DNA of 64,000 nucleotides from Lysobacteraceae bacterium (lineage in GTDB: Bacteria; Pseudomonadota; Gammaproteobacteria; Xanthomonadales; Rhodanobacteraceae). The DNA is taken from assembly GCA_028870665.1 (NCBI GenBank), contig JAGWPB010000001.1, positions 37,216 through 101,215 of the forward strand, given 5' to 3'. The stretch's first letter is position 1; each line of letters starts with the position of its first letter. Under the pieces are notes generated by a model. The model was given only the letters and a program-made list of their open reading frames with translations. It had not been told where the DNA came from and did not search any database. Made by a program: the position numbers and the translations under genes. Below, piece by piece: positions 60,014-64,000 of this stretch.

Positions 60014-61354
60014 TCAGAGCATGAACGGGACCTTGAAACCCATCGTGACATCAGGCGCGTCCGGAGTCAGGCCGACGCCCAGCGAAGCGACCAGGGTGAA
60101 CTTCGGGCTGATCGCATAGGTCATGCCCAGATTCAACGCGGCGGCGTTGCCATCGCTGCCGATTACGCCTTGCCAGTAGCCGAGATTGTCTGCTCGCACG
60201 CGGGTGGCGCCATTGAACCGGTGCGTGAGCGCCATGCTCAGGCTGGTGCGTTCATTCAGGGCGAACGCCACGCCGACGCCGTAGTTGAAAGCGTTGCCGA
60301 GATCGACCCGCCCCGGATTGCGGGTGGCGGGATTGGTGTCGAGATCGTCGAAGTGGCGCGCGAAGGTATGCGTGTAACCGATGCTGGCGAACAGGATCGC
60401 GGGATCCAGCGTCTTGACGAATGACAGCCCCGCCGACGCACCCCACACGCCGTTGCCTGTCGGCTGCGTCTCCGGTACTGCAAACTGGATGTAATCGCCC
60501 TGGCTTTCAAGCACCCGCCAACTGATGCCGTAGGGTGCGCGCCCGGTCGGGATGCTGACGCTGGTGTTGAGCACGATATCGGGCCGGGTCGCGGTCTCGC
60601 CAAACAGTCGGTAGCTGACGCCGCCGATGACGTCGCCAACATGCGCATCCGATCCGACCTGTTGCTCCGCAACCACCGCCGCCGCGCCGCCCGCGCCACC
60701 TTTCTGATAGGTGGTCCAGCGCTGAAGCACGGGCACATCGACATTGACGGTCAGATTGGGCGTCAGCGAGTAACGCGCCGAGCCGGTAAAGGTGAAGGTG
60801 TCGGACTCGACATTCTCGATCGCGATATTCCCGAGAAAGATCGCATCCAGTGCGAGAAACCCGTTGAGGGTGAGCTGCTTACGATCATAGCGGGCGTAGG
60901 TCATGCCCGCCTCGAGGATCAGGGGCTGATTGAACACCGCATGCTCCTGCAGCAGCACATCCTCAACACTGCGCGAAGCGCCAGCCGAACGCGTGGCAAT
61001 CGGGGGGCGGTTGGCGTCTTCGGCCTGAACCTGCGCCACAGCGCTGGCACCAGGCGCCGCCGAGACGGAGTTGTCCGCAATCATCGGTGCCGTCACTGGC
61101 GGCACGGCCGGAGCGCTCTGGACCGCTGCGCTCCCGCTCATCCGCGCAGTCAGCGCCTGCAGACGAGCGTCAATCTCGCGTAGCTTGCGAACTTCCTCCG
61201 CGTAGTGCTGCTTGAGCGTCTGCAGCTCGCGCTGCAGCACCTGCACCTGGGCCGCATCACTACCTGTCTGCTCGTCGGCCGCGAGCAATGGCTCCGGGTC
61301 CAGCGCCGAGAGTGTCATCAGCCCCAGCAACGCGCGCTCACGAATGCTCCGCAT
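60014..61354 (-). CDS. FapF-like outer-membrane barrel with N-terminal coiled coil
   Basis: A 446-residue exported protein: a basic N-terminus and hydrophobic signal (MRSIRERALLGLMTLSALDP), a coiled coil at about 34-72 (VQVLQRELQTLKQHYAEEVR), an Ala/Pro linker, then from about 160 a beta-barrel of alternating strands (FLALDAIFLGNIAIENVES, ARYSLTPNLTVNVDVPVL, KFTLVASLGVGLTPDAPDVT) ending MGFKVPFML, an outer-membrane C-terminus. This layout, with a C39 protease gene upstream, matches FapF, the amyloid export channel; phenol-degradation MetA-type transporters share the barrel. An upstream start at 61474 would mask the signal peptide. Confidence 0.75.
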   Translation of the reverse strand: MRSIRERALLGLMTLSALDPEPLLAADEQTGSDAAQVQVLQRELQTLKQHYAEEVRKLREIDARLQALTARMSGSAAVQSAPAVPPVTAPMIADNSVSAAPGASAVAQVQAEDANRPPIATRSAGASRSVEDVLLQEHAVFNQPLILEAGMTYARYDRKQLTLNGFLALDAIFLGNIAIENVESDTFTFTGSARYSLTPNLTVNVDVPVLQRWTTYQKGGAGGAAAVVAEQQVGSDAHVGDVIGGVSYRLFGETATRPDIVLNTSVSIPTGRAPYGISWRVLESQGDYIQFAVPETQPTGNGVWGASAGLSFVKTLDPAILFASIGYTHTFARHFDDLDTNPATRNPGRVDLGNAFNYGVGVAFALNERTSLSMALTHRFNGATRVRADNLGYWQGVIGSDGNAAALNLGMTYAISPKFTLVASLGVGLTPDAPDVTMGFKVPFML

Positions 61355-61486: not shown

Positions 61487-61849
61487 TCATACACGAATGA
61501 TGCTCTCTTTCAACGAATAGAGAATAGCGATGACTTCGCTTTGGGAGTCGACGTCCACATCATGCTTTTTCAACGCATTGAGAATGTCATCCATTACTGC
61601 CAAATATTCTTGTTCGCTGATGTTCATGCCCTTGTGAGCAGCAAGCATGTCTTTGCCCGTGTATGGTTCCGGGCCGCCGGAGCCTGCGCCGAAAAATTCG
61701 CGCGCCATCCGCTTGGCATGTCCTATATCCTTGATGGCCTCGAAGCGGGCCTTGACGATAGGATTATCCAGATGCGCGGCGATGACATCATCCACGATGC
61801 GGGCAATGCCATTCGCCCCACCAAGGCGTTGATAGAGCGTTGCGGTCAT
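61487..61849 (-). CDS. Group 1 truncated hemoglobin
   Basis: A 120-residue haem protein of the trHbI (GlbN) group. It has LYQRLGGANGIARIVDDVIAAHLDNPIVKARF, HAKRMAREFFGAGSGGPEPYTGKDMLAAHKGMNIS with proximal H72, and the GG turns of the two-over-two fold. Such proteins bind O2 or detoxify NO. ATG 61849 has a GAGAGG upstream; the longer frame is unsupported. It lies between the FapE-like and FapF-like genes; base composition is less GC-rich than its neighbours. Encoded 132 bases before the barrel start. Confidence 0.92.
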   Translation of the reverse strand: MTATLYQRLGGANGIARIVDDVIAAHLDNPIVKARFEAIKDIGHAKRMAREFFGAGSGGPEPYTGKDMLAAHKGMNISEQEYLAVMDDILNALKKHDVDVDSQSEVIAILYSLKESIIRV

Positions 61850-61948: not shown

Positions 61949-62350
61949 TCAGAGCATGCCACGCAAGAGTCTGACTTTCTCGCCACGCGGGGTCAGGACG
62001 GCCAGTACCGCTGCCACGACAAGGAGCGCGGGCACATCACCAAGGAGATGGCCAGCGCTGCCCGCACTGGTAAACGACTGAGCCGCCATGATCCCGCCAT
62101 GCACCACGCTTGACCAGACAGTGAACCAGATCAGGCTGAGATGATCGAGTGGATTCCGTGCGGCGATGATCAGGAAAATGCCGAGAGTCGCGTAAATACC
62201 TATGATCATCGGCGGATAGTTCGAATGGCCCGTGTGCCACACCCAACCGGATGGCCAGACGATCATGAGCAGGTAGATCCCGGCAACGAACATCAAGCCG
62301 GTCAATACCAGCGCGATCTGCAGATACTTGAGCGGGTGAATGTCGGTCAT
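61949..62350 (-). CDS. DUF6632-like four-helix membrane protein
   Basis: A 133-residue inner-membrane protein with four hydrophobic helices (LQIALVLTGLMFVAGIYLLMIVWP, MIIGIYATLGIFLIIAARNP, LSLIWFTVWSSVVHGGIMAA, LLGDVPALLVVAAVLAVL). The blocks IYATLGIFLIIAARNPLDHLSLIWFTVWSS and HLLGDVPALL fit a DUF6632-type family as I recall it. No function is known. It follows the FapE-like gene by 124 bases and precedes the globin by 99 bases; that AT-richer gap could hold a globin promoter, but I found no clear boxes. Confidence 0.75.
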   Translation of the reverse strand: MTDIHPLKYLQIALVLTGLMFVAGIYLLMIVWPSGWVWHTGHSNYPPMIIGIYATLGIFLIIAARNPLDHLSLIWFTVWSSVVHGGIMAAQSFTSAGSAGHLLGDVPALLVVAAVLAVLTPRGEKVRLLRGML

Positions 62351-62474: not shown

Positions 62475-63263
62475 TCAGGGATGGCCAAGCCCACGCATTT
62501 GGGACAGCGACTGCGCGACGTTCTGCCGCAGCAGGCTCGTCAGATCCATCTGCTGCAGCACCAGTGTCATCTGCAACTGGTTGGTAATTAGGTGGTTGTC
62601 GCCCAGCACGGTGGCGCTTTGCAGCACGCTGCCCATGCCGGCGCCGTTGCCGCGAATCAACTGCTGGACCAGACCCTGGTCGGCCAGCGCCAAGGTCACA
62701 CCGATGCCGTCCGGTGTGAACGCAACCTGCGCACTGGCACCGTCACTGGCTAACTGCGCCGAATCCGGACCGCCGCCAGCGGTACTACCGGAGGGTATGG
62801 CGCCCAGTACGTCCAGACGCAAGGTGTTGCCGACGCGGTTGTGGTCGCCGGTCACCTGGATGTTCTGTACCAGGCCTGAGGCGTTGGCGACGCCGCTGCT
62901 GTCGATCGTGCGCCCGGAGGTGTCGGCCAGTGTTCCATGCGGCCCGATGCTCGTGATACTGACCGTTGGCGTGAAGCTGATTACCGGTACTCCGCTGCGA
63001 AAATCGATATTCACCAAGGCGCTGCCGCTGAGCAGGCGACCATCCGGCATCTGCCAGCTCGACAGCATCTGCACGCCGAAATAGAGCACCGTATTGCTGC
63101 CGACCAGATAGCGGCCGCGCATGTCGCCCAGAGTGGCCTCGGGCAACTCCTGCAGGCCGCGGGCCAGCGGACGACCCATATCCGCAGCGCTTGCGGTACC
63201 GCCCAGGCAACTGGCGCACGCCAGCGCCGCTGCAATCGTCAACCCCATCACTCGCGTCGGCAT
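62475..63263 (-). CDS. Secreted protein of a Fap-like amyloid cluster (FapE-like)
   Basis: A 262-residue exported protein with signal peptide (MGLTIAAALACASCLGGTASA). The mature part is Gly/Ser/Asn/Gln-rich with repeated hydrophobic strands. Two related motifs are visible, NIQVTGDHNRVGNTLRLDV and ATVLGDNHLITNQLQMTLV, resembling the NNASGNIGVNxAAGDxNxQxN pattern of Fap components. A GAGGGAG Shine-Dalgarno precedes ATG 63263. The gene starts 11 bases after the C39 peptidase gene, the place of fapE in Pseudomonas. It could instead be a minor subunit; the assignment rests on context and this pattern. Confidence 0.65.
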   Translation of the reverse strand: MPTRVMGLTIAAALACASCLGGTASAADMGRPLARGLQELPEATLGDMRGRYLVGSNTVLYFGVQMLSSWQMPDGRLLSGSALVNIDFRSGVPVISFTPTVSITSIGPHGTLADTSGRTIDSSGVANASGLVQNIQVTGDHNRVGNTLRLDVLGAIPSGSTAGGGPDSAQLASDGASAQVAFTPDGIGVTLALADQGLVQQLIRGNGAGMGSVLQSATVLGDNHLITNQLQMTLVLQQMDLTSLLRQNVAQSLSQMRGLGHP

Positions 63264-63274
63264 CACACACTCCC

Positions 63275-63976
63275 TCAAAACAGATCTGCATGGGTGAATC
63301 CGAAATCGAGCAATTCGCCATCGGAAATAGGACTCTGCAGCGCAAACAGCGCGCGCGCACTGGGCGGACCGGAACGATCGAACAGCACCGTGTCGCGATC
63401 GAATCCGCTGCCGATCACGGCGAACACGGCCTTGCTCGGCCACATGCGCTGAAAGTCGGCCAGCGCATACGACTTGTTGCCCAGCGCCGGATCGGCCACG
63501 TCGACGCGACCTCCGGCAACGCGCTTGAGCACGACGAAATGCTTGTAACCTTGAGTATCCAGCAAGACGATCGTGGGGATGCGCAGGCTCTGCAGCCGCT
63601 GCAGGTCGACACGGTACCCACGCCCTCGCATACCCAGGCTTTCGACGTAGCGCTTGATGTCGAGTAGTGAAAAACCCCGCTCGCGCACCAACGCCGGATC
63701 GGCGACGGCGAGCATGCCCTGCATCACGACGTTCTCGTCCACGTCCATGCGGTAGGCATAGCGCAGCAAGGTCGCCAGTGCCGCCGCGCCGCAGCTGAAG
63801 TCAGTCCGCTGCGGGATCAGGTTGACGTAGCGCGACTCGCGCAAGCTGACCACATTGCGCGCCAACAGGCTTCCGTCGGGCAGCACGCCGCCAAAACGGA
63901 CGTCCGCGGCATCGACGCCGAAGCTCGCCAGCAGGACAGCCGCCGAGGTGATCGCACGGAACAGGATCCGCTCCAT
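63275..63976 (-). CDS. C39-family cysteine peptidase, FapD-like
   Basis: A 233-residue exported papain-like protease. A signal peptide ends near VDAADVRFGG. The active site is QRTDFSCGAAALATLLRYAY (oxyanion Q56, nucleophile C62), GYKHFVVLKRV (H145) and VDVADPALGNKSY (D162), a complete C39 triad. Unlike bacteriocin-transporter C39 domains it is free-standing, as is FapD, which supports amyloid secretion in the Fap system. ATG 63976 has GGGGAG upstream. The next upstream genes, beyond the window edge, should tell whether amyloid subunits are present. Confidence 0.8.
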   Translation of the reverse strand: MERILFRAITSAAVLLASFGVDAADVRFGGVLPDGSLLARNVVSLRESRYVNLIPQRTDFSCGAAALATLLRYAYRMDVDENVVMQGMLAVADPALVRERGFSLLDIKRYVESLGMRGRGYRVDLQRLQSLRIPTIVLLDTQGYKHFVVLKRVAGGRVDVADPALGNKSYALADFQRMWPSKAVFAVIGSGFDRDTVLFDRSGPPSARALFALQSPISDGELLDFGFTHADLF

Positions 63977-64000
63977 CGATACTCCCCGCCGCTTGCTGCC

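Follow-up and report, generated by a model that had tools for sequence, protein, structure and literature searches.

The window analysed here, a stretch of 64,000 nucleotides, carries near its end a gene whose product contains two similar short motifs, GDHN and GDNH. From the letters alone, this product had been described as a secreted protein with a duplicated turn motif of amyloid or beta-solenoid type, which might itself form fibrils or cap a fibril. The locus raises the question of whether such a protein builds a fibre or serves one built of other subunits, and of how it would be matured on the way.

The 262-residue open reading frame lies on the reverse strand within the limits first assigned to it (ATG at 63263, stop at 62475). 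Pfam provided no family for it, a PDB sequence search gave chance matches only and tblastn of plasmids returned no match. The NCBIfam FapE model NF058559 aligns to residues 38-259 with 75 bits, below its curated cut-off of 250 bits. Since this cut-off was reached by none of 300 genomes of the order but by four Pseudomonas-type genomes, we regard it as a Pseudomonas-type naming threshold rather than a biological definition. The gene is situated 11 bases downstream of fapD, in the following neighbourhood:

63275 to 63976, reverse strand: fapD, periplasmic C39-type cysteine peptidase (NCBIfam NF058616, 2.2e-77; Pfam PF03412, 2.8e-19)
62475 to 63263, reverse strand: fapE, divergent FapE (NCBIfam NF058559, E=4.7e-21; between fapD and fapF)
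63180 to 63263, reverse strand: Sec-type signal peptide of FapE, about residues 1-28 (by inspection; hydrophobic stretch ending ...GGTASA, followed by ADM)
61949 to 62350, reverse strand: gene for a DUF6632 small membrane protein, between fapE and fapF (PF20337, 1.9e-41)
61487 to 61849, reverse strand: truncated-haemoglobin gene, before fapF (PF01152, 5.9e-10; start by inspection)
60014 to 61354, reverse strand: fapF, outer-membrane secretion pore (NCBIfam NF058560, 2.9e-116; start at 61354 by inspection)

Judged by profile match and gene position, the product is a divergent FapE and belongs to a family and an operon type that are already known. The fibres made by Fap systems give biofilms stiffness and stability. 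The description of the protein as secreted, internally repeated and amyloid-associated was right, FapE being a minor component of the Fap fibre; secretion is predicted here from the signal peptide assigned by inspection, and the fibre data come from Pseudomonas (PMC3684753).

The window represents the end of a contig (C21), and its last 206 bases (63795-64000) overlap the end of a second contig (C7) with one apparent single-base difference. C7 encodes FapC (3.6e-51), FapB (1.8e-28) and a weakly matching FapA (5e-4), in the expected order, and the fapA-fapB-fapC genes are preceded by a gene for a sigma-54 activator with a VpsR-type domain. On L026, a public contig whose FapE is 100% identical, all genes from fapB to fapF lie together. 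The split of the operon is, from the sequence, a product of assembly, absent in nature. The same operon order was found in 80 further loci, mostly from Xanthomonadales (Stenotrophomonas, Luteimonas, Lysobacter, Rhodanobacter, Dyella and others), barring cuts at contig ends and a few loci without detectable fapA. Thus, the fapD, fapE and fapF matches, the fapA to fapC genes on C7 and the order kept in 80 loci indicate that the window carries part of a fap operon, assigned as fapABCDEF of an uncultured Rhodanobacteraceae-type bacterium; the system was first surveyed across genera in PMC3792158. A site resembling the sigma-54 -24/-12 element, TGGCAC-N5-TTGC, is present upstream of fapA (L004:6813-6828 and related loci), and, when up to 2 mismatches are allowed, was recovered in 75 of 78 loci versus 5 of 77 in a control stretch. 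The promoter of the operon is probably of the sigma-54 type.

Among the 80 further loci, the DUF6632 gene occupies the gap between fapE and fapF in the closest relatives only. Both the DUF6632 and globin insertions are found in L026 and L027, DUF6632 alone in L029 and L030, and neither in L028, and in L031 a globin gene is located after fapF. A weak DNA match on contig C93 was considered as a second fap locus and rejected, as it corresponds to an ordinary NHLP-type C39-containing ABC exporter. L005:5988-9472 encodes a second, ordinary C39-containing ABC exporter with an HlyD-like partner, elsewhere in the genome.

Both segments on which the proposed duplication was based are present in the FapE reading frame, with GDHN at residues 139-142 (62849-62838) and GDNH at residues 221-224 (62603-62592). 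They fall within two imperfect repeats:

62805 to 62912, reverse strand: imperfect repeat 1, residues 118-153 (hhalign to FapB/FapC repeats; GDHN turn at 62838-62849)
62559 to 62642, reverse strand: imperfect repeat 2, residues 208-235 (hhalign to repeat 1; GDNH turn at 62592-62603)

When the mature protein is compared with itself, the best off-diagonal match pairs residues 126-153 with 208-235. In the single sequence this match is borderline, with 20 of 300 shuffles reaching its score, which would fit a fortuitous similarity within a beta protein rich in Gly and Asn. Such a coincidence is nevertheless highly improbable, because neither site varies across the family and the two profiles align without any motif being supplied. 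Specifically, 79-80 of 81 homologues, essentially every full-length FapE, have the pattern Q-x6-[D/N]-x5-N at each of the two sites, and the invariant residues are Q, G, D, N and N in copy 1 and Q and N in copy 2. Internal repeat detection, which had been suggested as a check, was performed with halves cut without reference to the motif (residues 105-180 and 181-262): hhalign aligned residues 129-153 with 211-235 (E 1.8e-5) at a score of 30.1, exceeding all 200 column shuffles (maximum 22.9), and the N-terminal domain, used as a negative control, matched neither half. The duplication is thus real, as judged from homologue conservation and profile-profile comparison. The shared pattern, originally given as V-GD-H/N-N-x2-x-N-x-L, is better written as G/L-x2-Q-x6-D-x-[N/Q/H]-x3-N-x-L.

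To place the two copies, we compared them with 469 repeats of FapB and FapC from the loci that had supplied the FapE set. Repeat 1 aligned over 35 residues (hhalign probability 92, score 32.2, versus 15.3 for the best of 100 shuffles), whereas repeat 2 performed no better than shuffles against the same repeats. Repeat 1 is, by this profile comparison, a degenerate Fap repeat of the FapB/FapC family, and repeat 2, which matches repeat 1 but fails directly against FapB/FapC, is related to them through copy 1. The kinship of repeat 1 agrees with a published remark on Asn/Gln-rich sequence that resembles the amyloid repeats and lies in the C-terminal part of FapE (PMC5557850). Like FapE, the first FapC repeat has G-D-x-N-x3-N and a strand-turn-strand pattern, and this turn between two strands is common to FapE and the FapC/FapB repeats (PDB 9u4u, 9nqd). 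However, FapC and FapB have three repeats and FapE has two divergent copies, in which the central Asn of the published FapB/FapC pattern is replaced.

Structure prediction placed these units in the context of the whole protein. The AlphaFold2 model of FapE, built with 53 homologues (mean pLDDT 75, pTM 0.66), contains a helix at residues 42-49, a strongly conserved N-terminal domain with strands 59-71, 76-87 and 94-105 (pLDDT about 87-95), two strand-turn-strand units (131-138/143-153, turning at GDHN, and 212-220/225-236, turning at GDNH), further strands between the two motif units and a terminal helix:

62949 to 63089, reverse strand: N-terminal beta domain, residues 59-105, strongly conserved (AlphaFold2 strands, family alignment)
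62493 to 62543, reverse strand: C-terminal helix, residues 241-257 (AlphaFold2, low confidence)

The reading of the motifs as amyloid-type turns survived structure prediction in part: GDHN and GDNH are predicted turns between strands, but the model does not match the FapC fibril fold. Foldseek retrieved no PDB entry for the FapE model at E<=0.001, not even the FapC fibril, whereas the model of FapC from the same operon (L026; pLDDT 59), used as a control, retrieved the FapC fibril 9u4u with probability 1.00 and a target TM of 0.73. FapE is accordingly predicted to have the local unit of FapC without its layered fibril fold, a monomer model being weak evidence on assembly.

These results bear on whether FapE forms amyloid fibrils itself, as a third subunit homologous to FapC and FapB. 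We consider this unlikely. The two internal repeats, one of them matching the FapB/FapC repeats, the occurrence of FapE in fibres (PMC3684753) and the description of published FapE models as beta-solenoid-like (PMC11787515) would all fit a subunit. However, the published minimal Fap repeat, X15-G-X4-N-X3-G-X6-N-X7 (PMC3792158), is found in 0 of 81 FapE, whereas three copies per protein are present at nearly all of the same loci in FapB (75 of 79) and FapC (79 of 80); the FapE model is unlike the FapC fibril retrieved by the FapC control; and FapE in fibres is below gel detection (PMC3684753). The suggestion that the protein is itself fibril-forming is thus not supported, given two divergent copies, the second unrecognisable against FapB/FapC, and an unmatched FapC fibril fold. 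Because the FapE model misses this fold and the FapC control matches it, FapE probably associates with the fibre as a cap, an anchor or an initiator, instead of being a main subunit. An accessory fibre role of FapE is already known in Pseudomonas, and a recent review assigns anchoring to FapE and the processing of FapE and FapF to FapD (PMC12822426, 2025). The alternative part of the sequence-only reading, fibril capping, would fit this accessory or anchoring role, and capping, anchoring and docking are proposed here in that sense.

The question of the FapD substrate and of the FapE function dates back to at least 2017 (PMC5557850). In that study, the FapD target was called unclear and all Fap proteins were described as lacking a canonical C39 site; secretion needed the active-site Cys of FapD and was abolished when either FapE or FapD was lost, and FapE was the sole Fap protein with complete N-terminal processing (PMC5557850). 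In the FapE family, we observed a conserved segment following the signal peptide, [L/I]-x3-E-L-x2-M-R-G-[R/K] before [Y/F], which is a new observation:

63111 to 63155, reverse strand: C39-leader-like segment, residues 37-51 (-15 to -1), LQELPEATLGDMRGR (leader spacing, conservation, AlphaFold2 helix)

Positions are numbered backwards from the second Arg of RGR (Arg51 = -1). RGR is present in 81 of 81 FapE, with a Met before it in 80 of 81; in more distant FapE, Tyr or Phe comes after RG[R/K], and Pseudomonas-type FapE above the curated cut-off also carry the segment, as IELKDQELAQLRG[K/R]Y. The published consensus of C39 substrates is L(-12)xxxE(-8)L(-7)xxxxG(-2)G(-1), with positions -10 to -4 forming a two-turn helix (PMC6959990, PMC6363468). 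FapE resembles the double-glycine leaders of the ComA, LahT150 and PCAT1 substrates in its hydrophobic residues at -15, -12, -7 and -4 and Gly at -2 (this spacing in 80 of 80 FapE), in usually having Glu at -8 (69 of 81, with Thr instead in the window protein and in its closest relatives) and in the predicted short helix, which spans -10 to -3 (residues 42-49) in the model. With substitutions allowed, the consensus at -12, -8, -7 and -2 (scored as L-12, E-8, L-7, hydrophobic -4 and Gly-2) was recovered in 80 of 81 FapE. Unlike those substrates, FapE violates the Gly/Ala/Ser rule at -1, with Arg in 81 of 81 members of the first set and Arg or Lys in a diverse set; the segment is therefore leader-like rather than a canonical double-glycine leader. 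It also differs in following a Sec signal and in that the predicted cut would be made in the periplasm by a stand-alone peptidase.

FapD has the catalytic residues in place (Gln56, Cys62, His146 and Asp162 when aligned with LahT150 and PCAT1), and the catalytic motifs are conserved in its homologues. It differs from GG-type C39 peptidases in having Thr instead of Tyr/Phe two residues after the active-site Gln and Asp instead of Asn just before the catalytic His; as a lead, these differences might explain tolerance of a basic P1 residue. We infer that FapD binds the FapE leader and cuts after RG[R/K], that is, between Arg51 and Tyr52 in the window protein. In the published mass spectrometry, FapE lacks peptide coverage for its first ~70 residues, a stretch that reaches beyond the proposed site. 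The tryptic peptides just past the site would be hard to see, one being very short and one very long (judged from L211). Trypsin itself cuts at the same Arg/Lys, which suggests why mass spectrometry based on it could not have placed the proposed cut. The literature searched, which largely excluded subscription journals and preprints, contains no description of the site. A precise, conserved candidate reduces the question of the FapD substrate to one experiment.

Alternatively, MRG[R/K]-[Y/F] could remain uncut and play a structural or FapF-targeting role, the real FapD substrate being the FapF linker. In the published form of this alternative, FapF has GG/GA motifs just before the plug and its linker peptides are missing (PMC5557850); moreover, Arg/Lys at P1 is foreign to C39 enzymes. 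Nevertheless, the full leader spacing is present in every FapE, whereas in FapF it was matched, more loosely, in 14 of 79 proteins, in 1 of 79 with GG/GA/GS and never with D-10/E-8 (0-3 matches were found in each of FapA to FapD). Furthermore, complete N-terminal processing is confined to FapE among Fap proteins, and a segment with true GG adjoins FapD-like peptidases in non-fap loci. We therefore consider this alternative rather unlikely, though not negligible.

Ten non-fap loci (L178, L179, L180, L182, L184-L188 and L207) each encode a stand-alone FapD-like C39 peptidase and a small Sec-exported neighbour that carries ...EL..[M/L]RGG before F, or a close variant, e.g., VSNQELDQLRGGF. A FapF-like porin is encoded nearby, and FapB/FapC are absent. 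The four of these small proteins that were compared with NCBIfam had no meaningful family match, and the similarity of two of them to the FapE profile is essentially limited to the leader segment. A strict leader pattern was found in 13 of 371 ORFs near a C39 gene versus 0 of 1431 elsewhere, a descriptive comparison rather than a blind test, because the pattern was written after the first GG proteins had been seen. FapD- and FapF-like proteins also hit models of the putative FilB/FilC pilus system. These hits are much weaker than those to models for Fap, and no FapE-type leader was seen in the five loci nearest to FilB. The nap island of Neisseria, compared by its literature description, combines the C39 peptidase NapP and the FapF homologue NapF with leader-bearing exported GG peptides, as proposed for Fap, but its peptides have true Gly-Gly and are microcin-like, and it has no amyloid subunits (PMC11798529). 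This pairing supports a general scheme of a C39 peptidase with a FapF-type pore. On balance, we lean towards FapE being the physiological FapD substrate through a leader with Arg/Lys in place of the second Gly. Fap would then belong, as one branch, to a broader and mostly undescribed group of systems, in each of which a Sec-exported protein with a leader, encoded near a FapF-type pore, is matured by a stand-alone C39 peptidase of the periplasm.

The explanation that we find likely to account for the locus as a whole, fapE of a fapABCDEF operon with a FapD-cut leader, degenerate repeats and an initiator, anchor or cap function, joins the identity, operon, repeats, repeat 1 kinship and leader conservation and spacing observed here to secretion through FapF, FapE in fibres, FapD/FapE-dependent secretion and N-terminal processing of FapE, known from Pseudomonas (PMC5557850, PMC3684753). 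FapE would be exported by Sec with a signal of about residues 1-28. In the periplasm, residues ~37-51 would act as a C39-type leader, the short helix docking on FapD, which would cut after the invariant Arg-Gly-Arg, before Tyr52. Mature FapE would then leave through FapF and take its place on the FapC/FapB fibre, or else at its base or end, where its two degenerate repeats (strand, GD-x-N turn, strand) might pair with the fibre layers. FapE would thereby initiate, anchor or cap the fibre, the bulk of which is built otherwise.

Pseudomonas FapE (NF058559) shares with the window protein the position between fapD and fapF, the signal peptide, the conserved N-terminal domain, a clear first motif site and the leader-like segment. 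In contrast, its second motif site is less regular, the window FapE scores far under the Pseudomonas-calibrated cut-off (75 versus 250 bits), and the DUF6632 and globin genes precede fapF in the window operon, unlike in Pseudomonas. In one further genome (G778; L214 and L216), several FapE-like copies lie close together, and a 158-residue protein carries the FapE-type leader DLASIRGRF.
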